A model generated the notes under the pieces. The model made no database searches, had not been told where the DNA came from, and was given only the letters and a program-made list of their open reading frames with translations. The translations under genes and the position numbers were made by a program. Positions 27,293 to 47,231 of a stretch of 64,000 nucleotides of DNA are shown in pieces. Positions within the stretch are counted from its first letter, which is position 1, and the number at the start of each line of letters is the position of its first letter. Source of the stretch: Anaerococcus senegalensis JC48 (GTDB lineage Bacteria > Bacillota > Clostridia > Tissierellales > Peptoniphilaceae); NCBI RefSeq assembly GCF_000321005.1, contig NZ_HE578907.1, forward strand, positions 1,170,059 through 1,234,058, read 5' to 3'.

Positions 27293-27377
27293 AGATAAAT
27301 ATGCCTTGATTTGGCATATTTATCCCTAAAACTAGTGTGAAAGCACGGAGGAATTTGCGAAGCAAATGGGTTTTAGT
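27293..27377 (+). mobile_element. Insertion module M2
   Basis: 85 nt between CATCTCGAGC and GTCGAGAGATCTCT. Stem 1 GATAAATATGCC/GGCATATTTATC with loop TTGATTT, hairpin GTGT-GAAA-GCAC with a GNRA tetraloop, hairpin ATTTGC-GAA-GCAAAT, and closing pair CTAAAAC/GTTTTAG. Confidence 0.78.
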
Positions 27378-27699
27378 GTCGAGAGATCTCTGATTTACTT
27401 TATCTTATCATTAAATAAATGTTTGAAAATAAATCAATATAATAAAGCTCAAGGAATAAGGTAGATTTCAATACAAAACTAATTAAAGAGATCTCTCATG
27501 CACTCCACTTCGTTACGCTTAGTCGAGATGGGTCATATCTTTATTTAGTTTTTTACTGAAGAATTTATTTAAATATGTAATTTAATAATTTAATCTAAAA
27601 ATATGAAATTTTATTTAATATTAATTTAAATAATTTTTTATTGGATTTCCAATTTCCTTTAGTAATAAGAAAAGTACAAACCTAAAACCCATCTCGTGC

Positions 27700-27784
27700 C
27701 GATAAATATGCCTTGATTTGGCATATTTATCCCTAAAACTAGTGTGAAAGCACGGAGGAATTTGCGAAGCATATGGGTTTTAGT
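27700..27784 (+). mobile_element. Insertion module M3
   Basis: Nearly identical to the copy at 27293-27377 (one change disrupts the third hairpin: GCATAT instead of GCAAAT). The left host arm is altered to CATCTCGTGCC, while the right arm GTCGAGAGATCTCT is intact. Confidence 0.78.
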
Positions 27785-27872
27785 GTCGAGAGATCTCTGA
27801 TTTTATTTGTCTTGTCATTAAATAAATCCTTAGCAAAAACCACCACCCAAAATCACCTCAAAAATTTCTCAT

Positions 27873-27906
27873 AAAAAAAGCTATCAGCAAATTTCTTGCC
27901 AATAGC
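27873..27906 (-). terminator. Terminator at the end of the capsule operon
   Basis: Minus strand: GCTATTGGCA pairs with TGCTGATAGC (ten pairs including G-T), followed by seven T. It lies 22 nt after the SH3 lipoprotein stop. Confidence 0.85.
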
Positions 27907-27927
27907 CTATAATTTTATGAAATTGAT

Positions 27928-28323
27928 TTATTTTTCCAAAAGGTCACTTTTTACATAACCTTCTTGCCCTTCATAGAAAATTCTTGACCACATTTCTCCA
28001 TTTTCGTCTTCTTCTTCTGATAATAATTTTACTTGAGAATTTCCTGGGATTGAGGCTATTATGTTATCTTCGTTTGTACTTGGGCCTCTTCTTAGATTGA
28101 TTGTGCTTTTTGTTCTCAAATATTTACTTTCTGTATTACTTTGTGTATTTTCTTCTACATTTGAATCCTCTTTTTCTTCAACTTCATTTGAAATATTATT
28201 TGAAGAGCTATCAAAAACTGTATCAATTTGTACATCTCTTTGTTCGTATTTCTCTTGCTTTTTTTCACATGAGCTTAAGGCAATAAGTAGAGCAAGAGAG
28301 CATAATATATATTTTACCTTCAT
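27928..28323 (-). CDS. SH3-domain lipoprotein at the end of the capsule operon
   Basis: 131 residues. The N-terminal signal sequence has lipobox ALSSC (cysteine near residue 19), so it is predicted to be lipid-anchored outside the membrane. An acidic, low-complexity linker follows, then a bacterial SH3 (SH3_3) domain from about residue 69 with STINLRRGPSTNEDNIIASI and EGYVKSDLL. SH3_3 domains bind cell-wall peptides or glycans. The ATG at 28323 overlaps the stop of the phosphatase gene (ATGA) and has GGAG 7 nt upstream, which is better than a TTG 12 nt further up. Position suggests a role in attaching or localising the glycan. Function is inference. Confidence 0.85.
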   Translation of the reverse strand: MKVKYILCSLALLIALSSCEKKQEKYEQRDVQIDTVFDSSSNNISNEVEEKEDSNVEENTQSNTESKYLRTKSTINLRRGPSTNEDNIIASIPGNSQVKLLSEEEDENGEMWSRIFYEGQEGYVKSDLLEK

Positions 28324-29111
28324 TTTTTTCTCCAAAAATTAAATAAACTTTTTTTCTTACTTTTCTTTTTCACCTGTTCTTCTTCTCTTACAATCTCATC
28401 ATATCCACTTGGTATAAATTCATCATTTATAATTTTTTGAGGATTAGTTTGGGTCAATTTTTCAAATTTTTCTCTACCAATTATCTCAATAATCTCATTT
28501 TTTTCATCTTCAATATTTGGACTTCTCCATTCAGATTGATGAGAATCCGTCCCAATAAAATGAACCATATTTTTTTCTAAAAGTTTTTTTGTAGTATGCT
28601 TGTGAGAATCTATAGATGAATAATTTATTTGGACAAGAGCTCCCATCTTTATAAATTCATACAAATATGAAATATCTTTTTCAACATATGGGTATCTTTC
28701 TGCATGAGCTATAATTGGAACATAACCTTCAAGAGAAAGATTATATATTAAATCTGTCAAAAAAAGTGGTTTATTAACAAATGAGAGCTCCAACAAAACA
28801 TATCTTGAATTATTTAAAGTCAATAATTCTTTCTTATGAATTTTATCCAAAGTGTTTGGTTCAACGTGAATTTCATGTCCCGGGTGAATTTTAAAATCTA
28901 GATTTCTTTTTTTAATCTCATCATTTAAAATAGAAGATTTTTCCAAAATATCTTCTTTTTTTACCATATATCTTGACGGATCATAATGGCTTGTTGCAAT
29001 AATTTCCTTAAAACCATTTGCCATAAAAAGCTCAACCATCTTCATTGATTCATCAATGGATCTAGATCCATCATCTACACCATAAATTATGTGGTTATGA
29101 ATGTCAATCAT
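28320..29111 (-). CDS. cpsB: CpsB/CapC-type tyrosine-protein phosphatase (PHP family)
   Basis: Manganese-dependent phosphatase that dephosphorylates the capsule tyrosine kinase. 263 residues. The metal motif DIHNHI is at residues 3-8, followed by DDGSRSIDESM, then HPGHEIHVE, the AHAERYP segment and GTDSHQSEWR with the last histidine ligands. The C-terminus is basic (KKKSKKKSLFNFWRKK). Adjacent genes encode the kinase and its membrane activator, which makes the assignment firm. Confidence 0.94.
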   Translation of the reverse strand: MIDIHNHIIYGVDDGSRSIDESMKMVELFMANGFKEIIATSHYDPSRYMVKKEDILEKSSILNDEIKKRNLDFKIHPGHEIHVEPNTLDKIHKKELLTLNNSRYVLLELSFVNKPLFLTDLIYNLSLEGYVPIIAHAERYPYVEKDISYLYEFIKMGALVQINYSSIDSHKHTTKKLLEKNMVHFIGTDSHQSEWRSPNIEDEKNEIIEIIGREKFEKLTQTNPQKIINDEFIPSGYDEIVREEEQVKKKSKKKSLFNFWRKK

Positions 29112-29767
29112 TAATAATAACCCTTGTAAGTAGAATCTTTTAAATCTGCAAAAGTAAGAACAGCCCCCAAAACTTTTCCCTTCACTTTATTTAGATTTTC
29201 AAGAGCATGGGAAACTTCTTCTTTTTTGGTATCATTAGACTTGATTGCAAAAATCACCCCATCACAATAAGTAGAAACAATTGATGCATCAGTAAATAAT
29301 CCCACTGGAGGAGTATCCAAAAATACATAATCAAATCTTTTTGAAAGTTCCTCAATTAATTCTTTAACATGATTAGATGCCAAAATTTCTGCAGGATTTG
29401 GAGGAACCGGACCTGAGAGCATAACAAAAAGATTTTCTTCGTATTGGTCTTTTATCAAAGCTCTATCAAGTTCGACTTTCCCAGTAATAACATTAGTAAG
29501 ACCCATGTTAGTTTCAATTCCTGCAACTTTTCCAACCTTTGGCATTCTTAAATCAAAATCCAAAAGAGCAACAGAATTTCCATTTTCTGCAAAAGATTTG
29601 GCAATAGAATACAAAACAGTAGTCTTGCCCTCGCTTGGCTTAGAAGAAGTTATAGCAATAACTCTTTTTTTATTATCAATATCAGAAAATTGAATATTAG
29701 TCCTAACAGAACGAATAGCCTCATCAAAAATTGATGTAGAATTATAATAACTGTGTTTTTTTGCCAT
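29111..29767 (-). CDS. cpsD: CpsD/CapB-type autophosphorylating tyrosine kinase
   Basis: BY-kinase that regulates polymer length and export. P-loop SSKPSEGKTT (residues 41-50), Walker A' ALLDFDLRMP and Walker B VFLDTPP. A short C-terminal tyrosine cluster (STYKGYY) would be the autophosphorylation site, with only three tyrosines, fewer than in many homologues. I start at the ATG ending at 29767 (MAKKHSYYN), which has AAAGGAG 6 nt upstream and lies 1 nt after the CpsC stop. A longer frame to 29860 overlaps cpsC. 218 residues. Confidence 0.94.
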   Translation of the reverse strand: MAKKHSYYNSTSIFDEAIRSVRTNIQFSDIDNKKRVIAITSSKPSEGKTTVLYSIAKSFAENGNSVALLDFDLRMPKVGKVAGIETNMGLTNVITGKVELDRALIKDQYEENLFVMLSGPVPPNPAEILASNHVKELIEELSKRFDYVFLDTPPVGLFTDASIVSTYCDGVIFAIKSNDTKKEEVSHALENLNKVKGKVLGAVLTFADLKDSTYKGYY

Positions 29768-29768
29768 C

Positions 29769-30461
29769 TTACTCTCCTTTACTCTTATCAGGAACCATTC
29801 CAAGAACAGGAATATCAAAAGCCTCTTGGATATCATCAGTTGTCTTGAAAGTTGTGTCACTTAGTTCTTTAAATAAAGAAATAGCAACACCAATAATAAA
29901 ACCTAAAATCAAACCAGCAGCAGTATTCTTTTTAATATTAGGTGAAGAAGCTTTCTCAGGCAAATTGGCCTTATCAAGAATTTGAACATTATCAACTTTC
30001 ATAATCTTAGTTATAGAATCCTTAAAAACCATAGAAGTGGCATTAGCAATATCCCTACTTCTTTCAGGAACAGTATCAACAACTTTAACAGATATAATTT
30101 GAGTATCCTTTACAGGTTCAATAGAAACCTTTTGAGAAAACTCTCCATAATCCATATCAAGTTTTAAATTATTAATAACCTTATCAGCAACACCCTTACT
30201 CTTAACAATTTCAGAATAAGTAGAAACCAAAGCCCTATTAGCATTGATTTGATTAATATCCACATCCCCATCTTTTTGATTTTGTTCATTTTTAGAATTG
30301 CTAACAATCATAGTAGTAGTAGCTTCATACTTTGGTGTAATAACAAAAACAGAAGCTGCATAAGAAAGAGCTGCAAAAATAACAGCCAAACAAAGAATTG
30401 AAAAAAGATGCTGTCTTAACTTCTTAGCCAATTCCAATAAATCAATTTCTCTTTCATCCAT
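29769..30461 (-). CDS. cpsC: CpsC/Wzz-type chain-length determinant and kinase activator
   Basis: Membrane protein of 230 residues with Wzz domain. The first membrane segment is about residues 18-38 (FSILCLAVIFAALSYAASVFV). An extracytoplasmic helical region follows, and the second segment is near 178-198 (NTAAGLILGFIIGVAISLF). The proline-rich stretch before the second segment is typical. The cytoplasmic tail (AFDIPVLGMVPDKSKGE) activates the CpsD kinase in related systems. It directs the length of the exported polysaccharide. AAGGAG precedes the ATG. A 110-bp gap separates it from the flippase gene, so an internal promoter is possible. Confidence 0.93.
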   Translation of the reverse strand: MDEREIDLLELAKKLRQHLFSILCLAVIFAALSYAASVFVITPKYEATTTMIVSNSKNEQNQKDGDVDINQINANRALVSTYSEIVKSKGVADKVINNLKLDMDYGEFSQKVSIEPVKDTQIISVKVVDTVPERSRDIANATSMVFKDSITKIMKVDNVQILDKANLPEKASSPNIKKNTAAGLILGFIIGVAISLFKELSDTTFKTTDDIQEAFDIPVLGMVPDKSKGE

Positions 30462-30571
30462 TTATTTTCTCCTTTATATAAAATTATTTTTAAATTATTC
30501 AGAAATAAAAATTCTCTAACTCTTAGTTTATAATAAAATTTTGTTAAATTCAATGGTTTGTGATTTTACAT

Positions 30572-32092
30572 TTACCTCTTTATTTTTCTTACTACTTCAA
30601 AAACCATATTTTTTTCTCCTTCATCCATAACAAAAAAGAACATGACGCTCACATAAACAAGTACATATAAAATGCCGTGTACCATAAATTTAAAATATAT
30701 ATTAGGAATATATATTTTTTTTATTATTATACCAGCTCCTACACTAATACATGAAAATACAATTATAGGTATAATCTTTTTCCAAAACAAGGCAATATCT
30801 AATTTAATTATTCTAGAATATACTAAATTCATCAAAATCCATGATGACGTAACTATAGAAATCGTGGTTGCAAATGCTGCCCCATACATACCAAATCGTT
30901 TCGCAAAAAGATAGGTTAAACCTACATTTATAATAGATGATGTAAATAGTATTACTGCTTTATACCAATTTTTGTTTTTTACTAGTAGTATAACATTCCC
31001 TGAACTTTGAATAAGATCTATAGAATAAGGAACCATTAGTAATAATGCAACTACATATGCACTTAAAAAATCCGGTCCTGCAATAATTATTATAAATTCT
31101 TTCCCAAATAGTATAACTCCTGTTAACATTAATAAAACTAAATACGCCTGATATCTTCCAATTTTAGAAAAGCTATTTGATAGTTCTACTGAACTATTTT
31201 CAGACTGATTTATCCTAGTTATCATTGGTACAATTACGCTTGTTATGACAACACCAGCACTAATAAATAATGAGTTAAACTGTGCTCCAATAGCATATTC
31301 TGCGACTATCCCTGTTCCATACATACTACCTAAAATTATTTGATCTGTTTTCCAAAATATCTGATCTGCTATTGATATAAGCAAGACGGAACTAGATAAA
31401 CTAAAAATTCCTTTTATTAAATTAATATCTTTATAATGATACTTAACCTTAACTTTCAATCTATTTTTTGAATAATACATACATATGAACAAAGAAATAA
31501 TATTTAAAAGTAATTGAATGATTACAATAGTTGATGCTCTAGGATACTCTTTTATAAGACATAAAACTGATATAGGCTGTAATATTGTAACTGCCAAATC
31601 CAATATTTTTCTAAATATAAACTTTTCGTGTGCCAAAATAGAAGCTGAATATATTGAGCTATTTAAATATACTAATATGTTTAAAATCATGATTTTAAAC
31701 ATAAACATAGACTCTTTAATTTCATTATCCGTTAGATTTGTTGAAAATGATGATTTAAAAGCATAAGATATTGGTATTGCTATTATTACTATAATTATAG
31801 AAATGAAAATAAAAATCCTCTTACTAATAGCAAGTGTATTTTCCATTTTTTTATAGTCTTCTTTTATTAAATATTCTGTATAATATTTCATCACTGATGC
31901 ATTTATTGAAGAATACATTGTGGAAAAGTAGGCAATTATTGATCCTATTAATTGATATAAACCATATTCATTTTTACCAATCGTACTTAGTAAGAGTGGT
32001 ATATATATTATTGATACAACTGCCGATACTATAGTATTTATTATACTAAGTATAACAGCTATTTTTTTTTCGTTATTATTTATTTTATTCAT
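30572..32092 (-). CDS. Oligosaccharide flippase (Wzx-like, MATE/MOP superfamily)
   Basis: 506 residues with 12-14 hydrophobic segments along the whole length. The N-terminus is SIINTIVSAVVSIIYIPLLL and the glycine-tyrosine segment GKNEYGLYQLIGSI follows, both characteristic of polysaccharide flippases. It moves lipid-linked repeat units across the membrane for polymerisation by the adjacent Wzy-like protein. Last of the assembly genes before the 110-bp gap and the cpsC-D-B block. Confidence 0.9.
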   Translation of the reverse strand: MNKINNNEKKIAVILSIINTIVSAVVSIIYIPLLLSTIGKNEYGLYQLIGSIIAYFSTMYSSINASVMKYYTEYLIKEDYKKMENTLAISKRIFIFISIIIVIIAIPISYAFKSSFSTNLTDNEIKESMFMFKIMILNILVYLNSSIYSASILAHEKFIFRKILDLAVTILQPISVLCLIKEYPRASTIVIIQLLLNIISLFICMYYSKNRLKVKVKYHYKDINLIKGIFSLSSSVLLISIADQIFWKTDQIILGSMYGTGIVAEYAIGAQFNSLFISAGVVITSVIVPMITRINQSENSSVELSNSFSKIGRYQAYLVLLMLTGVILFGKEFIIIIAGPDFLSAYVVALLLMVPYSIDLIQSSGNVILLVKNKNWYKAVILFTSSIINVGLTYLFAKRFGMYGAAFATTISIVTSSWILMNLVYSRIIKLDIALFWKKIIPIIVFSCISVGAGIIIKKIYIPNIYFKFMVHGILYVLVYVSVMFFFVMDEGEKNMVFEVVRKIKR

Positions 32093-32122
32093 AAATTCTC
32101 CGTATCAAAATATAATAAATAA

Positions 32123-33565
32123 CTAATCAACATTGATTTTTGAATTTTTAACAAATACATTTGTTAATATTTTTATCAATATTATCCCAAAAATAAATTC
32201 ATTCTTTAAAAAAACACTTATGAACGAATCAGCGTTAGCACGTGGGATCATTAGTAAACTGCATAAGACAACCATAATCATTACTCTTTTAATGAAATTT
32301 TTAGAATTAAAATCAGAACATTTCTTTAATATGATACCGTATACTAAACTAAATATAAATATACCAATATATCCAAAGTCATGATATGCTTCTGCTATAT
32401 AGCAAGTACCTAGTCCTCTTCCGTGTAAATATCCAAAAGGTAATACAATGTATGAAATAGCATGAGAAAATGAATTTCCTAATACCGCTCTTTCTACACT
32501 ATTTCCTCTTAAAGATTCTATACCAAATATAAGGCTACTTAATGAGTTATATTTTAATTTTTCAATTAAAGTTCCAAAAGAATACATTTTATTTGGAATT
32601 CTATAATCATACATCTTTTCAAATCCTATAACACTAGAGCTCACTCCTTGTTTAACAAAGATATCTAAAAAGGATGAGGATTTATTTTGATCAAAAATAG
32701 TATTTTGAAACCTAACACTTCCAAGATAATCTAAAGCAAAAAGTATTATAGGTATCAACAGTAATATGAAAAATAGTAATCGTTTATTAATCCAGTTATC
32801 TTCACTCCTTTCATTATTACTTCTAAATATTGAGTAAATAAATATAACAGATAAGTTCACTACTAATATAGCTCTATTTCCAGTAAATAATGTTAATACA
32901 CAGTATAAAACAAATAAAATCATCGGAGCTTTTACATCTTTTTTACTAGGTAGAGTTGATAAGTAAATAAAAAAGTAAATTCTACATCCATATATGAATA
33001 ATCCTAACATATATGGAATTTTAATGACTTCATCAATATAAAGTTCTGTATAGCCAAGCTCCTTAACTTTGATTATTTTTAATATTTCTAATAAAATATA
33101 TGGTATATATGATAAATAAAATAATAACAAGCTAATTTTCCCGACTAAATCTTCATTGATATTTTTCTCAAATTTAAAGTTTGTTTTAAATTTAATATTC
33201 AATGTAAAGTAACCTATCATTATTGCTATAAGTGATATAAATAATGAAAAATATATGTGATTAAGTATTTCACTATCAAATAAAACTACACCTTTTGTAT
33301 AGTTAAAATATTCATAGACGAAATAAGAACCTAATAAAAACATAAAATAACAAAGTAAGAACATTATTAAAGGAATATTTTTTTTATAATTTCTTAGGCA
33401 TAAAATCAACAATATATTAAAAACTAACATATTCATAAAAAATATACCATTAATATTTTTAAACATCGATAATAAGACAAATAAAATCAAAAAAATTGTA
33501 GATATAAGTATATATTTCAAACTATAATTTTTAATATTATCCTTTTGGCTGTTTATTGATTTCAT
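32123..33565 (-). CDS. Wzy-like polysaccharide polymerase
   Basis: 480 residues with about twelve membrane segments and a larger external loop around residues 260-350 (LDYLGSVRFQNTIFDQNKSSSF through LIFGIESLRG). O-antigen polymerase family by topology and by position between glycosyltransferase and flippase. Sequence in this family is poorly conserved, so the call rests on topology plus context. TAATG overlap with the glycosyltransferase stop. Codon usage is even more AT-rich than in the neighbours, as common in serotype-specific genes. Confidence 0.82.
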   Translation of the reverse strand: MKSINSQKDNIKNYSLKYILISTIFLILFVLLSMFKNINGIFFMNMLVFNILLILCLRNYKKNIPLIMFLLCYFMFLLGSYFVYEYFNYTKGVVLFDSEILNHIYFSLFISLIAIMIGYFTLNIKFKTNFKFEKNINEDLVGKISLLLFYLSYIPYILLEILKIIKVKELGYTELYIDEVIKIPYMLGLFIYGCRIYFFIYLSTLPSKKDVKAPMILFVLYCVLTLFTGNRAILVVNLSVIFIYSIFRSNNERSEDNWINKRLLFFILLLIPIILFALDYLGSVRFQNTIFDQNKSSSFLDIFVKQGVSSSVIGFEKMYDYRIPNKMYSFGTLIEKLKYNSLSSLIFGIESLRGNSVERAVLGNSFSHAISYIVLPFGYLHGRGLGTCYIAEAYHDFGYIGIFIFSLVYGIILKKCSDFNSKNFIKRVMIMVVLCSLLMIPRANADSFISVFLKNEFIFGIILIKILTNVFVKNSKINVD

Positions 33566-34794
33566 TATAACTCCTTAATATGATCGATAAATTTACTATA
33601 ATTTTCCGATAGTTTAAATTTTGATTCCCAGATTTTTCTTGAATTCATTTTATATACATTAAATTCTTCTTTATCCATTGATTTAAATTTTAATATAGAA
33701 TTTTTTAAGTCGCTAATTGAAAAATCTTTATCTATTAATATTCCATTATAACCATCAACAACTGCCTCAGAAGTTCCTCCAACATTTGTTGCAATTATTG
33801 GTATACCAACAGACTCTGCCTCCATAATAGAAACAGGTAATCCTTCTGATTCACTTATATTAATAAATATAGAATATGGTTCTATACTTATTTCTCCTAA
33901 ATATTCATCATTATCATAAAAACCTTTAAATTCAATGTTTATGTTAGAGCCACAATTTTTGATATATTTATTAATTTTTTCTAAATAATTAGAATCTCCA
34001 TCTCCATAATGTATCCAGCTTATATCTGTATCTTTAATATTTTCAAGAGTTTTCGCTAACAAATGTAATCTTTTTATTTTAGCAATTCTAGAACAAGTAA
34101 GAATTACAAACTTTTTATTATTTATATTCTTGTTTATATTAATATCTTTTGTTCCAAGCCTGTGAAGAAATAATTTATTTTTTAATTCCTTTTTTGTATT
34201 GTAAAGATAATTCATACCATCATTTGAAATACAATATACTTCATTTATATTATTATATAAATAATTTCTATATGGTAGATAACACTCTTTATTCCTAAAT
34301 TCAAAAATATCTTGAGCATGTGCTCTAGTAACCACTTTTGAATTTACATAAGTGTTCTTTAACTTACAACAAGCTAAACTAGAAAATCCAACCCTATATG
34401 TGTAAAATACTATTTTTTCTTTTTTATCTATTTTTAGTTCATCTAATTTTTTTGAAATTTTATTATTTACTAAAGATCCTTTTGCAACAAATAAGCTTAA
34501 TCTTTTTAAAGAATCTATTGATAATTTCTTTTTCTTAATTAAATATTTAAATTCTTTAAAGAATTCTTTATTAAACAACCCTTTTAACAAGTACTTTATT
34601 CTATCAAAATTTGACCTATAAAATATATCTAATTCTCCAACTTGAATGTAATCTGGTATTTGTAAATGAGAATTGCTATAAACATGTCCTCTAACTGTAA
34701 ATATTATTGTTTGATCTAAACTCTTGTAATATTTTATTTCTTCTTTTAAATATATCTCATCTTGCATAAAATCAGAAACTAAGACTAGTATCAT
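33565..34794 (-). CDS. Glycosyltransferase family 4 (GT-B fold)
   Basis: Transfers a sugar from a nucleotide donor to the growing lipid-linked unit. About 409 residues. C-terminal GT4 domain has FVILTCSRIAKIKRLHLL and the donor-binding E-x7-E motif in ESEGLPVSIMEAE, then GTSEAVVDGYNG. I choose the ATG ending at 34794 (MILVLVSD), which has AAGGGTG just upstream; the ATG 15 nt earlier has none. It is the only recognisable glycosyltransferase besides the phosphoglycosyl transferase, so the repeat unit would be small or completed by enzymes encoded elsewhere. Confidence 0.88.
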   Translation of the reverse strand: MILVLVSDFMQDEIYLKEEIKYYKSLDQTIIFTVRGHVYSNSHLQIPDYIQVGELDIFYRSNFDRIKYLLKGLFNKEFFKEFKYLIKKKKLSIDSLKRLSLFVAKGSLVNNKISKKLDELKIDKKEKIVFYTYRVGFSSLACCKLKNTYVNSKVVTRAHAQDIFEFRNKECYLPYRNYLYNNINEVYCISNDGMNYLYNTKKELKNKLFLHRLGTKDININKNINNKKFVILTCSRIAKIKRLHLLAKTLENIKDTDISWIHYGDGDSNYLEKINKYIKNCGSNINIEFKGFYDNDEYLGEISIEPYSIFINISESEGLPVSIMEAESVGIPIIATNVGGTSEAVVDGYNGILIDKDFSISDLKNSILKFKSMDKEEFNVYKMNSRKIWESKFKLSENYSKFIDHIKEL

Positions 34795-34864
34795 TTTTTC
34801 ACCCTTCATTGTATCTATACTCTAAATAATATTTCATAGTAAATAATATATCCAACTTTAATCA

Positions 34865-35896: not shown

Positions 35897-35911
35897 AATA
35901 TATCTCCAAAT

Positions 35912-36901: not shown

Positions 36902-36916
36902 ATTAAACCTCTACGT

Positions 36917-38194: not shown

Positions 38195-38213
38195 TGGTAT
38201 TACTTCCTTATAA

Positions 38214-38807
38214 TTAATTAGTATTTATATTTTTTTGGAGTAAAACAGACTTAGCAGTTTGTATTACTATTTTGAGATCAACAATGAAGCCTAAATTTTC
38301 AGCATAATAAACATCTTTTTCAAGTTTTTCTGCTTGATTTATAGAGTTTCTATAATAAGCTTGGCTATACCCTGTTACTCCTGGTCTTATACTCAATCTC
38401 TTCTTTTCAACATCTGACATATCTTCATATACTTTACTAGGATTATTTGGTCTAGGTCCAATCCAGCTCATATCACCTTTTAAAATATTAAATACTTGTG
38501 GCAATTCATCTATTGAAGTTTTTCTCAAAATTTTTCCGATTTTTGTAACTCTTGGATCATTTGCACTATTAAAAGTAGAATTGTCTTTGTTTCTAATGTC
38601 TGGTGCATTCATTTTCATTGAGCGAAGTTTATACATTCCAAAAATGGAGCCATTTAAGCCCCTTCTTTTTGCTATATAAAAAATATCACCTTTATCTTCA
38701 ATGTATATCAAAATTCCAAATATTAGACAAATTATTAGTACAAACGGCAAGGCAATTATTGCAAGTATTAAGTCTAGTATTCTTTTTATAATCTTTCTGT
38801 ATATCAT
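38214..38807 (-). CDS. Initiating phosphoglycosyl transferase (PglC/WcaJ-type, monotopic)
   Basis: Transfers the first sugar-phosphate to undecaprenyl phosphate. 197 residues, minimal catalytic form without the multi-pass N-terminal domain. One re-entrant hydrophobic helix (about residues 10-32), conserved YKLRSM, the catalytic aspartate-glutamate pair in TSIDELPQ and the WIGPRP signature. The bacterial enzymes of this size usually use UDP-diNAc-bacillosamine or a related amino sugar. That fits the upstream 4,6-dehydratase and aminotransferase. Confidence 0.93.
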   Translation of the reverse strand: MIYRKIIKRILDLILAIIALPFVLIICLIFGILIYIEDKGDIFYIAKRRGLNGSIFGMYKLRSMKMNAPDIRNKDNSTFNSANDPRVTKIGKILRKTSIDELPQVFNILKGDMSWIGPRPNNPSKVYEDMSDVEKKRLSIRPGVTGYSQAYYRNSINQAEKLEKDVYYAENLGFIVDLKIVIQTAKSVLLQKNINTN

Positions 38808-38815
38808 TATTTTCC

Positions 38816-40015
38816 TTACTTTTCTACTTCTATTTTTATTTTTTCCAAAGCTTTTTCACAAGATAGTGTAGCTTTTGAAGTATTCTCAGCTTGTGATATG
38901 ACATAGGCAACTCTATCGTTTGAGCTTTTTATTTGTCTTGACTCTTCTCCAACTCCATGGACTATTTTAACATCTTTTACTCCTTGGATTTTATTTGCTT
39001 GGTCAACACCTGTTATTTTTATTATTTTACCTACATCACATTTTTTATATCTTGTTGCTGAAGCTTTTTGAAATTTTTTTCTAATATCTACTTCTTGTCC
39101 AAGTGCAATATTTATACAGGCTTCTACCATGTTTACTCCTGTTGAGTATGGAACTAAGTGCGTTGTTATATTATCCCCACCTAGTCTTGCGCCTAATTCA
39201 ACAATTTTTGGCCCATCTTTTGTTACTTTTATTTCTGTATGAGATGGACCATTTTTAATTCCTATGGCTTTATTTGCATCTATTGCCACTTTTTTTATTT
39301 TTTCTAATACATCTTTATCTAATGATGATGGCTGATTGTGACCCATTTCTACAAAATATGGTTGTCCTGTTGTAATTTTATCGGTAATTTGTATTACATG
39401 GCAAGTTCCTTTATATGAAATTGTTTCTACACTAACTTCTGGACCTTGCATAAATTCTTCTACGACCAGAAGTCCTGAATTCGAATTTTCTTTGCAACAT
39501 TTATATATCTTTTCTAATTCTTTTTGATCATAATTTTCTATAAGCCTTATTCCCCTGCTTCCCGAATTATCTGCAGGTTTTACTATAGCCTTATAATTTT
39601 TATTTTTAATTTTTTCTATAGCCTCAAGATACTGATCATACTTGTCTACTGAAAAGTACATAGGAATTGGTACAGATGATTTTTTTAGAGCATCTCTCAT
39701 TTTTGATTTATTTGTAGCATTCATTGCAGTTATTTCATCAATTGCTATTAAATTTAATTCTTCTGCAACTTTTGCTACAGTTATCATTGGCCTATCACTT
39801 GCTATGGTTATTATTCCATCAATATTATTTTCTTTTGCAGCTTTTAAGACTTTTTTTGTATCTGTAGTACTTACTACTATTTTTTTATCTGCATATGAAA
39901 AACCTTCTGCATTAGGATTCATGTCAACTGCTATAACATATACTCCCATTTTCTTTGCTTGAACAATTGCAGGGATTTGTAGGACACTTGCTCCTAAAAT
40001 CATTAATTTTTTCAT
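38816..40015 (-). CDS. ATP-grasp carboxylate-amine ligase (capsule locus, second of two BC/PurK-like)
   Basis: 399 residues. Same family as the product of 36917-38194 but only moderately similar. N-terminus KLMILGASVLQIPAIVQAKKMG, ATP loop KAIVKPADNSGSRGI (about residues 140-155), EEFMQGPEVSVETIS, and GARLGGDNITTHLVPYSTG. The C-terminal PurK-like subdomain has GVDQANKIQGVKDVKIV. It resembles ligases that form amide or peptide bonds on sugars or small molecules. Directly after the aminotransferase, so the freshly made amino group is the obvious acceptor. Inference only. Confidence 0.85.
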   Translation of the reverse strand: MKKLMILGASVLQIPAIVQAKKMGVYVIAVDMNPNAEGFSYADKKIVVSTTDTKKVLKAAKENNIDGIITIASDRPMITVAKVAEELNLIAIDEITAMNATNKSKMRDALKKSSVPIPMYFSVDKYDQYLEAIEKIKNKNYKAIVKPADNSGSRGIRLIENYDQKELEKIYKCCKENSNSGLLVVEEFMQGPEVSVETISYKGTCHVIQITDKITTGQPYFVEMGHNQPSSLDKDVLEKIKKVAIDANKAIGIKNGPSHTEIKVTKDGPKIVELGARLGGDNITTHLVPYSTGVNMVEACINIALGQEVDIRKKFQKASATRYKKCDVGKIIKITGVDQANKIQGVKDVKIVHGVGEESRQIKSSNDRVAYVISQAENTSKATLSCEKALEKIKIEVEK

Positions 40016-40030
40016 AAAACCTTCTTTACT

Positions 40031-41245
40031 TTATTTATACTTTTTCACAATCTCACAAAAACTTTTAATAATATAATCAACTTCCTCATCAGTTAATTTT
40101 GTATGAAGAGGTAGGGTTATTTCGTTTTTGAAATGGTTGTAGGCGTTTGGATAATCTTTTATATCAAATTCAAGATTTTTATAGGCTGTTAATAAGGGAA
40201 GTGGTTTATAATGGACATTACATGCAACTCCCTCTCTAGCCATTTCTTCTATTATTTTATTTCTTTGTTCTGTATCTATTCCTGGAACTTGTGTTATATA
40301 CAAGTGGCCTGATGATTTATGATCTTGGTCGAAGTGGTTTAGTGATTTTATTCCTAGTGGTATAAATGCTTTATCGTATTTTTCTATTATTTCTTTTCTT
40401 CTTTTTAATAGTGACGGATATCTTTTTACTTGGGCAAGTCCGATTCCTGCTAGAACATCTGTCATATTACATTTAAACCAAGGTCCTATTACATCATATT
40501 CCCATGAACCTAGTTTTGTTTTGCTTAGGGCATCTTTTGATTGTCCATGAAGGGATAGGAGTTGATACTTTTTGTAAAGTTTTTCGTTATCAATTCCTTT
40601 TATATCTTTCCATGTTGCATATCCACCTTCTGCTGTGGTGAAATTTTTTACTGCATGGAAGGAAAAGTTTGAAAAATCTGCTATTGATCCTACTTTTTTC
40701 CCTTTGTATTCCGCTCCCAAAGCGTGAGCAGTATCTGCCATTACTATAATTCTATCGAAAGCTTTTTGTATCTCATTATTTGCTTTAAATAAACTTTTCT
40801 TTTCTTCTACAATCTCAAAAATTTTGTCGTAATCACAAGGTACTCCTCCCAAGTCTATTGGAATAATTACCTTTGTATTTTCAGTAATAGCTTCTTTTAG
40901 TTTTTCGTAATCCATTTCTAAATTTTCTTTTTGGGTATCTACTAAAACTAATTTTGCTCCAACATGGTCTACTACTGAGGCTGTTGCTGTATAAGTATAG
41001 GCACTTGTTATTATTTCATCGCCCTTTCCAATTCTCAAAACTCTAAGGGTCATTTCTGCCGCTGCTGTTTGTGAGTTTAAGCAAACTCCCTTGTTTGTTC
41101 CAGTAAATTGTAATAATTCTTCCTCTAATTTTTTTGTTTTTGGTCCTGTTGTTATCCAGCCTGATTTTAAGGCATCTACCACTTCATCTATTTCTTCATC
41201 GCTAATATCTGGTGGAGAAAATGGTATGTTCATTTTTTTTGTCAT
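40031..41245 (-). CDS. DegT/DnrJ/EryC1 sugar aminotransferase
   Basis: PLP enzyme that converts the 4-keto group of a UDP-4-keto-6-deoxy sugar to an amine. 404 residues. PLP-binding lysine in FSFHAVKNFTTAEGG (near residue 198), N-terminal SGWITTGPKTKKLEE, and DTAHALGAEYKG holding the pyridine-binding aspartate. The ATG overlaps the dehydratase stop by one base, so the two act in sequence. PglE and related enzymes are the closest functional match. Confidence 0.92.
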   Translation of the reverse strand: MTKKMNIPFSPPDISDEEIDEVVDALKSGWITTGPKTKKLEEELLQFTGTNKGVCLNSQTAAAEMTLRVLRIGKGDEIITSAYTYTATASVVDHVGAKLVLVDTQKENLEMDYEKLKEAITENTKVIIPIDLGGVPCDYDKIFEIVEEKKSLFKANNEIQKAFDRIIVMADTAHALGAEYKGKKVGSIADFSNFSFHAVKNFTTAEGGYATWKDIKGIDNEKLYKKYQLLSLHGQSKDALSKTKLGSWEYDVIGPWFKCNMTDVLAGIGLAQVKRYPSLLKRRKEIIEKYDKAFIPLGIKSLNHFDQDHKSSGHLYITQVPGIDTEQRNKIIEEMAREGVACNVHYKPLPLLTAYKNLEFDIKDYPNAYNHFKNEITLPLHTKLTDEEVDYIIKSFCEIVKKYK

Positions 41246-43206
41246 TATTTATTCCCCTTTCCTATAAATGTGCTTATCAAAATATTGATAGTCTCGATTA
41301 TATCTAATTCGTCTATGTTTTCTTGGTTTATTACCTTATCAAGTTTTTGGAAAAATTCTTTTCTTGAAAATTCTAATGGTCTTCCTACGGATATTCCTTC
41401 TACTTTTGTATCTGATAAAAGTTCTTCATCCATTAGTCTTTCTTCGTATAATTTTTCTCCAGGTCTTAGTCCTGTGTAAATTATTGGCATATCTATGTCT
41501 GGTTTGTAGCCTGATAGTTTTATTAATTGCCTTGCCAAATAATCTATTTTTACTGGTTCTCCCATGTCTAAAACAAAGATTTCTCCGCCTTTTGCCATTG
41601 ATCCTGCTTGTAAAACTAATTTTACAGCTTCTTTTATTGTCATAAAATAGCGAATCATTTCTGGATGGGTTACTGTTACTGGCCCTCCTGATGCTATTTG
41701 TTTTTTAAATAATGGAATTACTGATCCATTTGATCCAAGTACGTTTCCAAACCTTACTGCAACAAATTCTGTTTTAGGAGTTTTTTCTTGTAAATAATCT
41801 TTTGGATTTATTGTAACTATTCTATCTCCATCGTTGATTGCTACTTTTGCTAGTTTTTCGTATTCTTTATTTTCTCTTATATCATTTATTCCTTGAATTA
41901 TTTTCTCACAAACTCTTTTAGTAGCTCCCATTACTGATGTTGGATTTACTGCTTTATCGGTTGAGATTAAAACAAATCTTTTTGCATCATATATTAATGA
42001 AAGTAGGGCAACTATATATGTTCCTCTTACATTATTTTTTATTGCTTCAACCGGACTTACTTCCATTAATGGTACGTGTTTGTGAGCAGCTGCGTGGAAA
42101 ATTATTTCTGGTTTATATGTTTCAAATACATTTTTAACTCTTGCAAAATCTCTTACTGAACCAATTAAAGTAATAAATTTTAAATCTTTATTATTTCTTT
42201 TTAATTCTTGTTCTATTTCATAAGCATTATTTTCGTAGATATCAAAAATTATTAAAAGTTTTGGACCGTATTGAGCAATTTGCCTACATAGTTCTGAACC
42301 AATTGAACCACCGCCACCAGTTACAAGAACGACTTTATCATTTAAATAATCAAATGTTTCATTTGAAAATATTTTTACAGGATCACGTCCCAACAAATCT
42401 TCTATTTGAACTTCTTTCATTCCAGACATGGAAATATTTCCAGAAACTAATTGATAAATTCCAGGAAGGACTTTCACTTCACAATTTGTTTCGTTACATA
42501 TTTGAAGAATTTCCCTTCTTTGATTTTCCTCAGCTGACGGTATTGCAACTAATATTAAATCTATATCTCCTTTATCTACTAATTCTTTTATAGAATTACG
42601 ATCTCCATAAATTATTGTATCATCAATATATTGACCTTTTTTATGAGGATTATCATCTATAAAAGCAACAACTTTTATTCCAATATTTTCTTGCCTATTT
42701 GACTTGTTTATATCTTCTTTTATAGTTTGACCAGCAGAACCTGCCCCAACTATTATCGCCCTCTTAAATTCCGGATTTTTTTCTATTGCATTATATTTGT
42801 TTTGAATTAACATTTTTTTTGCAAATCTTAAAGCGACTGTGAACATATATTGAATTAAAAACCCAATTATAAAATATGAGATAGGCATCCTTATAAAAAA
42901 TAAAGAAATTCCTATAACATGAATAAATACTGATAGGATAACAGCTTGAGTTATTTTTATTAGCTCATTATAAGATGCATATTCTAAAATCATCCTGTAC
43001 AACTTAAAAAATACATAAATTGCAATTGTGATTATTGTGTTAAAAATCGCATAATTCCTAAATCCATTTAGATATTCTAATGGAATTTGATTAAATTGCA
43101 TATCAAACCTTAAAAATAATGCGAAAAAGTATGCCAAATTAATTATAATTATATCAAAAACTAAAAGTATTAAAGTTTTTTTGTTATATATTTTCTTTAA
43201 ATTCAT
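41245..43206 (-). CDS. Membrane-bound UDP-GlcNAc 4,6-dehydratase (PglF/CapD-type)
   Basis: 653 residues. Four N-terminal membrane segments (about residues 12-30, 50-70, 82-104, 107-125), then a CoA-binding-like domain, then the extended short-chain dehydrogenase domain with VTGGGGSIGSE near residue 294-304. The catalytic segment STDKAVNPTSVMGATKR replaces the tyrosine with methionine, as in PglF. It makes UDP-4-keto-6-deoxy-GlcNAc, the first step to bacillosamine-type sugars. It follows the LCP gene after a 91-bp gap that holds a hairpin with a short T-run, so read-through could set the ratio. Confidence 0.94.
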   Translation of the reverse strand: MNLKKIYNKKTLILLVFDIIIINLAYFFALFLRFDMQFNQIPLEYLNGFRNYAIFNTIITIAIYVFFKLYRMILEYASYNELIKITQAVILSVFIHVIGISLFFIRMPISYFIIGFLIQYMFTVALRFAKKMLIQNKYNAIEKNPEFKRAIIVGAGSAGQTIKEDINKSNRQENIGIKVVAFIDDNPHKKGQYIDDTIIYGDRNSIKELVDKGDIDLILVAIPSAEENQRREILQICNETNCEVKVLPGIYQLVSGNISMSGMKEVQIEDLLGRDPVKIFSNETFDYLNDKVVLVTGGGGSIGSELCRQIAQYGPKLLIIFDIYENNAYEIEQELKRNNKDLKFITLIGSVRDFARVKNVFETYKPEIIFHAAAHKHVPLMEVSPVEAIKNNVRGTYIVALLSLIYDAKRFVLISTDKAVNPTSVMGATKRVCEKIIQGINDIRENKEYEKLAKVAINDGDRIVTINPKDYLQEKTPKTEFVAVRFGNVLGSNGSVIPLFKKQIASGGPVTVTHPEMIRYFMTIKEAVKLVLQAGSMAKGGEIFVLDMGEPVKIDYLARQLIKLSGYKPDIDMPIIYTGLRPGEKLYEERLMDEELLSDTKVEGISVGRPLEFSRKEFFQKLDKVINQENIDELDIIETINILISTFIGKGNK

Positions 43207-43267
43207 ATTCCCTTCTTTATTTTTTATTTTTTTAATCTAGTAAAATCTAGTTTTTAAAAATAAACAC

Positions 43268-43294
43268 TAAATAAAAGGGAAATTTCTTTCCCTT
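43268..43294 (-). terminator. Weak terminator or attenuator between the LCP gene and the dehydratase
   Basis: Minus strand: AAGGGAAA pairs with TTTCCCTT around a 4-nt loop and is followed by TTATTT. It lies 3 nt past the LCP stop. The T-tract is short, so partial read-through is expected. Confidence 0.5.
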
Positions 43295-43297
43295 AAA

Positions 43298-44731
43298 TTA
43301 TTTATTTCTATTATTATTCAATATATTTTTGTGTACACTTTCTATAGACTCATCATCTGCTTGCATCATATAAAGTTCACTTGATGGCATCAAATATGAT
43401 GGAAGTCCTTGTGCTCCGTAGCCTTTAATAGCCTGACTTTCTATTTTCCAATTTTTGTTATCTTCTAATTGCCCATTAACCATTTCTATCATTTTATTGT
43501 ATGGCAAATTAGTATTTACAGATTCCAAGGCTACGTCTGCTATAGAACTAAAATTCATTAATGTTTCTGTTGATAATAATTTATTTATTATTCCAGTCAT
43601 TACTCTGACTTGATTTTTTCCTCTATCAAAATCGCCTTCTGCTAGATTATATCTTTCTCTAGAAAAAGCAAGTGCCATTTCTCCATTCATATGAACTCTT
43701 CCTTGTGGGAAATTATATCCACCTATTGATTCAAAAGCTACTGGGTTTTCTACTTCAACTCCTCCCAACAAATCAATTAGTTTTGTGAGCGTTGTAAAAT
43801 TAACCTTAGCATAATAATCTATATCTATATCTAATAATTTCTCTAAAGTTTTAATTGATGTATCAACTCCAAAAAGACCTGCATGGGTTAGTTTATCATT
43901 TGCACTTTCACCAAGACCTGCTATATTTACATAAGTATCCCTTGGAATTGTTGTAATTAAAATTTTTCCTTTTTTAGGATTTACACTTACTATCAAGTTT
44001 ACATCTGATCTTGAAACATTTGAAAGTGCTCCGTAAGTATCAATTCCTGAAATATATACATTAAAACTTTGATCTTTTCCTACTTTATTATTTTCTTTTA
44101 GATTTTCATCACCCTTAACAGAATAAGATTTCAAAACTCTAGTTTTATCTGAAAATCCTTCAATAGATTCATCAAGCATTTGTCTAAAACCTTCATTTAA
44201 AATCATTACTTGAGCGTTTCCATTTATAAGAGCTTCTGCTGATTTTATGTAATCTCCAAAATCTTCAGCGTTAATTTCTCCCTTATCTTTTTTATATTTT
44301 TCTATAGTTTGATCTATATTTTTTTCATCCATTTGTCTTGCAATAGCAACTTGAGTTTGTCCTATATCATCAATTGAATTAAAATTTGAATCCTTCAATA
44401 CAACAAAAGACATACGAGTTTTATTCAAGTCCTTTTTTTGATTGATTTTTTCTACAGTTTTAATTGATGTATTTGCGTAAGACATAAATATTCCTTCGCA
44501 TACGCTTATTAATATCAACCCAACTATAAATATTGCCTTCACAACTTTACTTGCATTCTTTTTCTTAAAAATAAAGATGGAAAATCCTACAATTACGATT
44601 AGGATTAATCCCAAAATAATAAATCTCAATTTTTTTGGTAAAATATTGTATTTATTTACAAAATAAAAGAAAAGGATGTATATTATAGAAGATAAAAATA
44701 TTGAAATTTTAGATATTAAGTTCTTTGTCAT
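43298..44731 (-). CDS. LytR-CpsA-Psr (LCP) family glycopolymer transferase
   Basis: Attaches lipid-linked glycopolymer to peptidoglycan outside the cell. About 477 residues. Three N-terminal membrane segments up to about residue 95, an accessory domain (DNA_PPF-like, about 105-225), then the LCP domain with SDVNLIVSVNPKKGKILITTIPRDTYV, SANDKLTHAG and AFSRERYNLAEGDFDRG, whose arginines bind the pyrophosphate. I start at the ATG ending at 44731. A GTG further up (44758) would include AAAGGAG. First gene of the capsule operon behind a strong promoter. Confidence 0.93.
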   Translation of the reverse strand: MTKNLISKISIFLSSIIYILFFYFVNKYNILPKKLRFIILGLILIVIVGFSIFIFKKKNASKVVKAIFIVGLILISVCEGIFMSYANTSIKTVEKINQKKDLNKTRMSFVVLKDSNFNSIDDIGQTQVAIARQMDEKNIDQTIEKYKKDKGEINAEDFGDYIKSAEALINGNAQVMILNEGFRQMLDESIEGFSDKTRVLKSYSVKGDENLKENNKVGKDQSFNVYISGIDTYGALSNVSRSDVNLIVSVNPKKGKILITTIPRDTYVNIAGLGESANDKLTHAGLFGVDTSIKTLEKLLDIDIDYYAKVNFTTLTKLIDLLGGVEVENPVAFESIGGYNFPQGRVHMNGEMALAFSRERYNLAEGDFDRGKNQVRVMTGIINKLLSTETLMNFSSIADVALESVNTNLPYNKMIEMVNGQLEDNKNWKIESQAIKGYGAQGLPSYLMPSSELYMMQADDESIESVHKNILNNNRNK

Positions 44732-44781
44732 GGCTTCAAAATTTCTCCTTTTATACACAATTTTTACTTAGTCCCTAAATA

Positions 44782-44810
44782 AGGATATACTAATCTGTAA
44801 CTTTTGTCAA
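44782..44810 (-). promoter_or_regulatory. Main promoter of the capsule operon
   Basis: Minus strand TTGACA (44805-44810), 17-nt spacer, TATCCT (44782-44787), about 50 nt before the LCP start. All genes down to 27928 run in the same direction with gaps of at most about 110 bp. Confidence 0.7.
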
Positions 44811-44966
44811 TAAATTATAGGCTATATTCATTGAAATTTAAAAGTTTTTTAATACTTTGGAAAATACTTATTTATTTTTACGACAAAAAAACTTTTTCCT
44901 AATATTTACTTTTATTTATGAAAAAAACTGATAAAGTATAGTTAATGATTTTTAAGAGGTGATTTT

Positions 44967-46286
44967 ATGAATTTAGATAAGAAAATTTTAAAACAATTAG
45001 AAACAATTTATGATAAAGATGAAAAAAATAAGGTAATTGAAAATGCTATTTCTAATATGGGAATAAAGGAGGCCTCCCTTGATAGAAATATTATTAATAG
45101 GCACGATTTTATTTTTTCTAATGAGGTCGAAACTAAGGATGTTACCAATCAAAAAAAGACTGGTAGATGTTGGATGTTTGCAGGGCTAAATATGGTTAGG
45201 ATGCATATTGCCAAAAAACTTAATATGGAAAAGTTTGAGCTTTCCGAGTCTTTTTTGTATTTTTATGACAATATGGAAAAGGCAAATTTGTTTTTACAAA
45301 GGGTGATTGATACAAAAAATTTGGATATTAAGGATAGAAAAGTTGAGGATGTTTTTTATTCTACTCCTGAAGACGGGGGTTATTTTGAATTTTTCTATTA
45401 TTTGATCAAAAAATATGGAATTGTTCCAAAAAATGCCATGGGCGAACTTTACCATACTGATCAATCTCAATTTATGTTTTATGTATTAGAAAATGCTCTC
45501 AAAAAAATTGCCATGAAAATTAGGGCAACAGATGATGAGAAAAAAATAGAAAATTTAAGGAAAGAAGGGCTTTCTTATGCCTATAATATTTTTGCAAAAT
45601 CAATAGGAAAACCTGTAGAATCTTTTGATTTTAAATATTATGATAAGGATGATAAATATCATATAGAAGAAAATATGACTCCAAAAGAATTTTTTGATAA
45701 GTATGTGGGTGATTTTTTTGATGGAAAAGTTAAGTTATTAAATGACCCAAGGCACCCTTACAATAGGATTTTGGTTGATAAGATGGCAAAAAATGCAGTT
45801 GACCTTGATGATCTTGTTGGAATTAATGTGGATATGGATACCATGAGCAAATTTGCCCAAAAATCCATAAAAAATAATGAGACAATGTGGTTTGCTTGCG
45901 ATGTTGATATAAATGAAGACAGAGAAAGTGGAGTTTTAGATGAAAATTTATTTAATTTTGACCAAACTTTTGTTAATTTCCCAAAAATGACCAAGGAAGA
46001 AAGAATAAATTCAAGATATTCTACAGCATGTCACGCCATGAATCTTACAGGATTTGATAAAAAAGGTAAAGAGGTTGAATTCTGGAAGATAGAAAATTCC
46101 TGGGGCGAAGATGACGGTAAAGATGGATATTTTTCTATGACTGATGAGTGGTTTAGGGAAAATACCTTTGAGTTGATAATAGATAAGAAATTTTTGACAA
46201 AAAAAGTAATGGAAGCCTTTGATAAGGAAAAAATTTATTATGATGAATTTGACCCTATGTATAAGATGCTAAGAAATGTTAGATAG
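44967..46286 (+). CDS. pepC: Aminopeptidase C (bleomycin-hydrolase family)
   Basis: Cytosolic cysteine aminopeptidase of papain fold (peptidase C1B), usually a hexamer. 439 residues, normal length. The catalytic cysteine is in KKTGRCWMFAGLN (near residue 67), histidine in STACHAMNLTGF, and asparagine in WKIENSWGE. The C-terminus blocks the active site in the family and confers exo-specificity. Trims peptides taken up as nutrient. AGAGGTG ribosome site. Monogenic, and its 3' end faces a large repeat array. Confidence 0.95.
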   Translation: MNLDKKILKQLETIYDKDEKNKVIENAISNMGIKEASLDRNIINRHDFIFSNEVETKDVTNQKKTGRCWMFAGLNMVRMHIAKKLNMEKFELSESFLYFYDNMEKANLFLQRVIDTKNLDIKDRKVEDVFYSTPEDGGYFEFFYYLIKKYGIVPKNAMGELYHTDQSQFMFYVLENALKKIAMKIRATDDEKKIENLRKEGLSYAYNIFAKSIGKPVESFDFKYYDKDDKYHIEENMTPKEFFDKYVGDFFDGKVKLLNDPRHPYNRILVDKMAKNAVDLDDLVGINVDMDTMSKFAQKSIKNNETMWFACDVDINEDRESGVLDENLFNFDQTFVNFPKMTKEERINSRYSTACHAMNLTGFDKKGKEVEFWKIENSWGEDDGKDGYFSMTDEWFRENTFELIIDKKFLTKKVMEAFDKEKIYYDEFDPMYKMLRNVR

Positions 46287-46433
46287 AAATTTTTTTGATT
46301 AATTAATAAAGATATATCTATAGCCCATCTCGACTAAAGGTAAGGTAGTGAAGTGCATTAGAGATCACTTTGTTTTCTTTGCTAAAAGCTTAGTTTTATT
46401 TTTTGATTAATTTAATTTATGAGATCTCTCCAC

Positions 46434-46600
46434 ACTAAAACTCATTTGCTTTGCAAATTCCTCCGTGCTCATGAAAACTCATTTACTACGTAAATTCTTC
46501 CGTGCTCTCGCACTAGTTTTCAGGATTTATAACCGAAATCAACGGTTATAAATCTGCACTAGTTTTAGGGATAAATATGCCAAATCAAGGCATATTTATC
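46434..46600 (-). mobile_element. Insertion module M4, interrupted by a second module
   Basis: On the minus strand it begins GATAAATATGCC-TTGATTT-GGCATATTTATC, then CCCTAAAACTAGTGC. It is cut at the tetraloop position by about 86 nt (46470-46555) and resumes with GAGCACGGAGGAATTTGC and ends GAGTTTTAGT. Without the inner piece it matches the copies at 27293 and 27700. Confidence 0.75.
46470..46555 (-). mobile_element. Insertion module M5, nested in the tetraloop of M4
   Basis: Minus strand: stem 1 GATTTATAACCG/CGGTTATAAATC with the constant loop TTGATTT, then GTGC-GAGA-GCAC (GNRA loop), ATTTAC-GTA-GTAAAT, and TGAAAAC/GTTTTCA as closing pair. Sequence differs from the other copies in the stems, but pairing is kept. 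Confidence 0.75.
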
Positions 46601-47181: not shown

Positions 47182-47223
47182 ATAAAAAATAACCCATCTT
47201 GATTTTTATTTTCAAGATGGGTT
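47182..47223 (-). terminator. Terminator of the tetrapyrrole operon (bidirectional)
   Basis: AACCCATCTTGA (47191-47202) pairs with TCAAGATGGGTT (47212-47223). On the minus strand it is followed by ATTTTTTATA, on the plus strand by TTTTTT, so it may serve both sides. The arm again shares CCCATCT with the repeat family. Confidence 0.88.
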
Positions 47224-47231
47224 TTTTTATT

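Follow-up and report, generated by a model that had tools for sequence, protein, structure and literature searches.

A self-nesting hairpin module of Anaerococcus with covarying stems, probably a non-autonomous mobile DNA element

Module copies in the window and their host repeats

The stretch of DNA analysed here (the window) comprises 64,000 nucleotides (64 kb) of the 1.80-Mb genome of Anaerococcus senegalensis JC48 (contig NZ_HE578907.1, positions 1,170,059 to 1,234,058) and contains four complete copies of an 83-nt hairpin-forming module, as well as a fifth copy that is split by a nested one. An earlier note on this DNA, made from the letters alone, had described an "insertion module" with a conserved three-hairpin structure and compensatory changes. 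Here, we follow up the fold, the hosts and the distribution of this module, which is probably a non-autonomous mobile DNA element, specific to the genus and about 84 bp long, whose fold is conserved as DNA and which spreads mostly inside host repeats.

The first copy occupies positions 13702–13784 on the plus strand (stem 1 GATAATTATGCC; 89.4 bits to the model described below), inside a host repeat CCCATCTCGAG...GTCGAGAGATCTCT at 13689–13800 (+). The second, at 27294–27376 (+; stem 1 GATAAATATGCC; 100.4 bits), lies in a host repeat at 27281–27391 (+), and the third, at 27701–27783 (+; 95.1 bits), in a second host repeat at 27688–27798 (+), 407 nt downstream of copy 2 (a repeated unit of 183 nt with 90% identity). 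The fourth copy, at 46472–46554 on the minus strand (stem 1 GATTTATAACCG; 95.2 bits), is nested in the fifth, and both are enclosed by one host repeat at 46421–46613 (−). The earlier note had listed starts at 13701, 27293, 27700 and 46470, where we recovered the complete modules starting at 13702, 27294, 27701 and 46472, and a further copy at 46434, which is a real module, albeit one cut in two by copy 4 at the site of its GNRA loop. Its 5' half (46556–46600, −; partial model match at 46559–46600) holds stem 1, the opening part of the closing helix and the GTGC from the tetraloop hairpin, while its 3' half (46435–46469, −) holds GCAC, the third hairpin and the end of the closing helix, such that the minus strand reads GTGC, then a whole second module, then GCAC.

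Every copy in the window sits inside a shorter repeat, CCCATCTCGA...GAGATCTC, the ends of which are strongly overrepresented, with 16 occurrences of GAGATCTC against 0.42 expected and 22 of CCCATCTCGA (at most one mismatch) against 0.91 expected. The same host repeat also occurs without a module, at 46818–46863 (+), where the probable orthologue in the relative G013 holds a short related module, at 47084–47129 (+), and in reverse orientation at 27085–27130 (−) and 27488–27532 (−). A further unfilled host, CCCATCTCGAGC-TT-GTCGAGAGATCTCT at 13973–14000 (+), lies in the tandem duplication next to copy 1 (125-nt direct repeat, 97% identity); it reads CTCGAGC-TT-GTCGAG and permits a comparison of the unfilled and filled forms. 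At 47193–47221, CCCATCTTGA...TCAAGATGGG followed by a run of T looks like a terminator made of host repeat sequence.

Conserved fold and covariation

The fold consists of a 12-bp hairpin (stem 1, with a loop that is mostly TTGATTT) beside a three-way branch composed of a closing helix, a hairpin with a GNNA tetraloop and a third hairpin with a three-base loop. When the copies at 27294, 13702 and 46472 were compared with 200 shuffles, no shuffle equalled them, with z-scores of −5.6, −4.7 and −7.1, respectively, for DNA folding and −5.3, −4.7 and −5.0 for RNA folding. The predicted fold coincides exactly with the three-hairpin plan of the earlier note for the copies at 27294 and 46472, and in part for that at 13702, in which stem 1 and the third hairpin are predicted as DNA and stem 1 alone as RNA. 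Both strands fold, as DNA and as RNA, in the one copy that was checked.

A model comprising 29 pairs over 84 positions was trained on 24 source-genome copies, in which 92.7% of the pair cells hold standard pairs, compared with 80.3% after shuffling and at most 44.6% with slid partners. Both-sided changes were found in 14 of the 29 pairs of these 24 copies, with a covariation score of 0.332 against 0.126 for shuffled alignments. RNAalifold, run on the same 24 sequences, recovered stem 1 and the third hairpin and missed the closing helix and the tetraloop hairpin, partly because MAFFT offsets the nested type by one column. A search of 43 sources with the model returned 103 matches (96 distinct), with 97.1% of cells paired versus 78.7% shuffled and both-sided changes in all 29 pairs; since this alignment is fitted to the model, an R-scape-like, tree-aware test was run on a plain MAFFT alignment, with column substitutions rescattered 100 times on the inferred tree. 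This test covered 120 distinct copies, comprising 101 obtained from 147 matches (75–95 nt, with 60-nt flanks, made unique) and 19 further source-genome copies. Nine of 3240 column pairs were significant (E<0.05), each of them a pair of the predicted fold, with eight belonging to stem 1 and one to the third hairpin; besides, predicted pairs make up 19 of the 29 top-ranked column pairs. The fold is supported beyond phylogeny, in agreement with the compensatory changes claimed in the earlier note, whose quoted stems and loops are as written.

The loops, which had been described as constant, are indeed so within the window, yet across the genus this holds only in part: TTGATTT closes stem 1 in 90 of 120 rows, alongside over 35 distinct stem sequences, and the three-base loops are led by GAA (47), AAA (21) and GTA (19). 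Likewise, the GNRA tetraloops noted in the window broaden to mostly GNNA in the genus, with GGTA or GATA in 31 of the 120 rows.

Wobble pairs as a test of RNA or DNA

RNA helices accept G·U pairs and reject A·C pairs. In 87 distinct modules (2504 pair cells), G·U occurs 33 times and A·C 25 times, at ratios of 5:7 in stem 1 and 6:7 in the third hairpin, whereas a tRNA control built from the fixed stem positions of 44 distinct tRNAs of the fetched loci (748 cells) gives 55 G·U and 2 A·C (p = 3e-7). The model-free alignment shows 63:50 in total and, by element, 10:10 (stem 1), 10:15 (third hairpin) and 26:18 (closing helix). Tree reconstruction assigns to stem 1 55 double changes from one Watson-Crick pair to another, together with 35 one-sided losses, of which 10 lead to G·U, 9 to A·C and 16 to mismatches, with 31 of the 35 at tree tips. 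We read this as the decay of individual copies in the absence of RNA-type selection, with perfect arms retained in the lineage that spreads.

Selected structure in RNA or single-stranded DNA had been proposed in the earlier note; the conserved structure holds, while its RNA half is disfavoured, because G·U and A·C are similarly rare in the module and because its orientation to genes is mixed and its hosts include degenerate RNA genes, a gene fragment, repeats and the module itself. In DNA hairpins, loops of the GNA and GNNA types rank among the most stable. An Rfam scan of the window at the gathering score returned no family for the module, the sole match being an ordinary FMN riboswitch elsewhere (59807–59920, −; 102.7 bits), and below that score the module gave two chance-level hits alone. 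Covariation that would pass as RNA evidence is better read as DNA here, a caution for covariation-based RNA discovery, and the count of G·U versus A·C provides a simple check separating RNA from DNA folds.

Distribution and genomic hosts

The source genome holds 32 model matches. Relatives were scanned with stricter filters and a limit on the number of candidates, such that their counts are lower bounds: in the human-associated genus Anaerococcus, the module is present in 25 of 31 genomes, with at least 361 matches including nested halves and 2 to 59 per genome, six genomes giving no match in the model scan, and the 218 other genomes of the order gave none at these settings. A module-derived pattern run over the genome collection matched 36 stretches, 33 of them from Anaerococcus; the three others gave no model match and were taken as chance. 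Viral contigs searched with one exact pattern, and plasmids and phages queried with one source-genome copy, yielded no match.

The host is the CCCATCTCGA repeat in the species nearest to the window. In other species, modules lie in additional 5S rRNA copies close to rRNA operons, at the loop C region and toward the 3' end, in additional tRNA copies (tRNA-Gln', tRNA-Met' and tRNA-Pro'), in a uvrB 3' end that has been duplicated, in AGCC...GGCT hairpins, of which three stand next to tRNA-Arg, and in GGGGGA repeats. With RNA-gene copies, a gene fragment and the module itself among its hosts, the term "insertion module" is well chosen. In five of six 5S loci, the altered copies are accompanied by a normal 5S gene, the exception being G020, whose stretch ends at a contig end and has an odd rRNA order, and a normal tRNA gene is present in all four tRNA loci. 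The altered RNA-gene copies are mostly spare at the loci examined, for which survival bias is the simplest reading. In this sense, Anaerococcus is a genus whose spare 5S and tRNA copies gather layered hairpin insertions.

In the 20-kb stretches and the window, 85 matches were placed between two open reading frames (ORFs) and six more inside ORFs, while the remaining ones had no neighbour ORF on one side. Convergent spacers hold 36 of the 85, against 21.7 expected (p = 5e-4), tandem spacers 36 (14 on the strand of the left gene and 22 on the opposite strand) and divergent spacers 13, figures that are indicative only, as ORFs were defined by length and the repeats themselves lengthen spacers. 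Regarding insertion in reading frames, six ORFs of at least 90 amino acids overlap copies, but all have a TTG start and look spurious, no homology search having been made.

Nesting and spread

Seven nested copies were read in the source genome, and all seven follow the same GTGC, within three outer stem types. The locus at window positions 46287–47240 could be compared among relatives, with its exact orthology slightly uncertain because of the repeats: the nested pair is kept in G007, G001 has lost 46 nt between the two CACTAGTTTT repeats, and G013 carries the short related module (a similar first hairpin plus CGATTTATCG) in a host that is empty in the source genome and G001. No target duplication was seen at the junctions read by eye, and where filled and unfilled forms can be compared, the insert replaces 0 to about 5 target bases. 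We also considered whether insertion always occurs into hairpin loops, which by eye fits the CCCATCTCGAG host, the nested case and the 5S loop C region; this rule fails for tRNA-Pro', tRNA-Gln' and uvrB and is unsupported by the flank test given below.

Two further observations concern transposase genes. An intact Y1 transposase gene of the source genome (L033, 1592–2308, −) is RAYT-like at 62.2 bits, below the NCBIfam RAYT cut-off of 80, and carries CCCCAATGGGGACG-type repeats on its flanks rather than the module. At L067 (1450–1480, −), the CCCATCTCGA host breaks off at GGAGA and other sequence comes next, with an IS110 match about 900 bp away; a similar module-to-IS110 spacing recurs in G001 and G007, and IS110 elements may target the CCCATCTCGA repeat.

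Discussion

We favour, with reasonable though not high confidence, the reading of the module as a mobile DNA element, because it resides in several kinds of host, nests in itself and varies from 0 to 59 matches per genome within one genus, and because a short related module is found at a probable orthologous host in G013 that is empty in the source genome and G001. The stems are rewritten while remaining complementary, such that the fold, as DNA, would be what stays conserved. Copies would spread mostly by riding in larger intergenic repeats (CCCATCTCGA...GAGATCTC in the window), with occasional entry to new hosts, namely extra 5S and tRNA copies, the uvrB 3' fragment, other repeats and the module's own tetraloop hairpin, and the folded single-stranded DNA would presumably be acted on by a protein supplied in trans. 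When 101 distinct copies are placed on a tree, host labels require 19 changes, with a minimum of 11 and a shuffled mean of 48.2, the labels being assigned by motif rules and the 84 columns leaving many forks unresolved; on this tree, most copies spread along with their host, a minority recording host changes.

Several results weigh against this reading. The closing helix and the tetraloop hairpin showed no significant covariation in the tree-aware test of 120 copies, and they lean toward RNA-like wobble, with one-sided changes of 17:11 (G·U:A·C) and 12:6, respectively, and with 17:7 (p = 0.06) in the model-free alignment for the tetraloop hairpin, which alone leans toward G·U there. Host labels are strongly clustered on the module tree, and at the one orthologous locus examined, no full-module gain at a proven orthologous empty site was found. 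The tRNA-Pro' sibling without a module might be a deletion, and the nesting at a single site could be one insertion spread by gene conversion. Flank complementarity is 3.68 versus 3.39 for mismatched flanks, and 10 of 13 host classes exceed their own null, in a test made coarse by clustering, which puts 72 of 106 copies in one host-mixing class.

The candidate mobilising enzymes weigh in the same direction. Among the 31 genomes, 21 have a Y1_Tnp match, 17 an RVT_1 match and 18 an IS110 match (15 above cut-off). As candidate movers, Y1_Tnp has no match in 8 of the 25 module-bearing genomes and does have one in four of the six without module matches; RVT_1 (group II intron or retroelement) is missing in 9 of the 25, its source-genome match containing two stops; and the IS110/IS1111 DEDD transposase has no match at E<=0.001 in 12 of the 25, including the source. 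Three module-bearing genomes, G008, G014 and G030, have none of the three. These absences argue against each enzyme as the sole mover today, not against a mover since lost. With several hundred matches in 25 genomes, the genus provides material for finding the enzyme that moves such modules.

The module might instead be a functional structured RNA, either a small RNA or a 3'-untranslated-region element, expressed by numerous copies and under selection for the RNA fold. We consider this improbable: the strong predicted RNA fold, the covariation, the mostly constant stem-1 loop, the excess in convergent spacers, that is, in 3' regions (36 of 85), and the 17:7 lean of the tetraloop hairpin are in its favour, but it has to contend with overall wobble ratios of 33:25 or 63:50 against 55:2 in tRNAs, GNTA tetraloops in 31 of 120 rows, the 14:22 orientation in tandem spacers, the lack of an Rfam family match, six match-free genomes of 31, and modules held by degenerate RNA-gene copies. 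The same convergent-spacer excess would fit a chromosomal site used by another element or protein (a terminator, a REP-like binding site or an attachment site) and not itself moved. tRNA genes, 5S genes and gene 3' ends are places that integrating elements use, and copies lie at tRNA genes, 5S genes and the guaA and uvrB 3' ends; in addition, a CCCATCTCGA host beside a module is interrupted by other sequence near an IS110 match. Self-nesting, the several host kinds and the range of 0 to 59 matches per genome are more in keeping with a spreading element, and we regard such a fixed site as rather unlikely.

Template switching, correcting one palindrome arm from the other with no selection on the fold, is a mutational explanation that would produce the 55 Watson-Crick to Watson-Crick double changes on single branches and the one-sided stem-1 changes without a G·U excess. 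However, arm correction alone accounts neither for a stem-1 loop that varies far less than its stem (TTGATTT in 90 of 120) nor for the kinds of host, and we hold it to be doubtful. Equally doubtful in our view is a minimal DNA replicator in which the folded strand of about 84 nt would move by a machine other than Y1, reverse transcriptase or DEDD enzymes, its stem arms being recopied during movement. The folded strand would enter single-stranded or looped DNA with no target duplication, and one arm would be copied from its partner in each round, renewing the pairing; the paired stem changes with few wobble intermediates would then follow from the recopying of arms.

We found no description of the module in the literature, in a library mostly without subscription papers. 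As a mobile DNA element, we rate it as fitting among the small hairpin-forming mobile repeats, of which mitochondrial double-hairpin elements are another group, while its covariation beyond phylogeny, its scarcity of wobble pairs and its nesting in itself and in RNA-gene copies are unusual. Bacterial miniature inverted-repeat transposable elements (MITEs), including the Rickettsia palindromic elements, are small, non-autonomous and dispersed in spacers. The module is so too, but it differs from them in that we saw no target duplication and found no cognate transposase, simple terminal inverted repeat or convincing reading-frame insertion. With the REP/REPIN and RAYT system, it shares many palindromic intergenic copies and a source genome with a RAYT-like Y1 gene; unlike in that system, the Y1 genes do not track the module, and the flanks of the L033 gene bear CCCCAATGGGGACG repeats. 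Hairpins and a lack of target duplication are also shared with non-autonomous elements of the IS200/IS605 type, whose TnpA (Y1) has no match in 8 of the 25 module-bearing genomes. Structured functional RNAs have covariation beyond phylogeny in common with the module, which lacks their tolerance of G·U over A·C and a match to a curated family.

The mitochondrial GC clusters of yeast and the RHE of sponges share with the module a length of tens of bases, hairpins, a non-coding nature and a location in intergenic spacers; sponge RHE also lie inside rRNA genes, and yeast GC clusters merge with one another (PMC4478555, PMC2800124). GC clusters have AG or ACT direct repeats on either side that resemble target duplications, and in sponge RHE substitutions fall in loops while helices are conserved (PMC4478555, PMC2800124). 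By contrast, the module is bacterial, shows no such flanking repeats and keeps its stem-1 loop while the stem changes in pairs. The likeness concerns behaviour alone (dispersed small hairpins in spacers and RNA genes, and merging), with no claim of shared descent. For 5S rRNA, self-paired expansion segments have been reported in the loop C region, in helix IV and in 5S remnants (Stepanov and Fox 2021, PMC7812874), and insertions occur at similar places in the extra 5S copies here. Anaerococcus goes unmentioned in that work (PMC7812874), and the present cases differ in that the 5S copies are extra ones, truncated at the 5' end and in part tandem, and in that tRNA copies, a uvrB fragment and intergenic repeats harbour the module as well.

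Further observations at host loci

The extra 5S copies at L163 (295–1110), L162 (4840–6536, −) and L088 (1306–1770) lie behind a true 5S gene, are 5'-truncated and partly tandem, and carry up to three different hairpin insertions (loop C, the helix IV region and near the 3' end). Another small hairpin unit, CCGTCCGG...GGAC, appears in the tRNA-Gln copy (L138, 9154–9181) and in 5S copies, with 22 counts in 9 of 41 stretches, or about 11 sites, since the pattern counts both strands. In G020 (L144, 14785–18991), a 16S match precedes a stretch at the contig end that matches 23S as well as part of 16S, with an altered 5S copy between the rRNA matches, which points to an assembly error or a scrambled operon.

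Gene ends serve as hosts as well. In the source genome, divergent modules at L060 (1501–1586) and L062 (1501–1577) start in the stop codon of a GAATGGGAGTAA end; one such end is the end of guaA, and the segment looks like a copied guaA end. Downstream of both copies there is a match to the Streptococcus small-RNA family SpR18 (128.7 and 91.7 bits). At L169 (9350–9660, −), the uvrB 3' end is duplicated, with the module in the second copy; over 71 positions the two ends show 9 differences, 7 of which fall on third codon positions, as if one end derived from another strain, and neither is consistently nearer to relatives.

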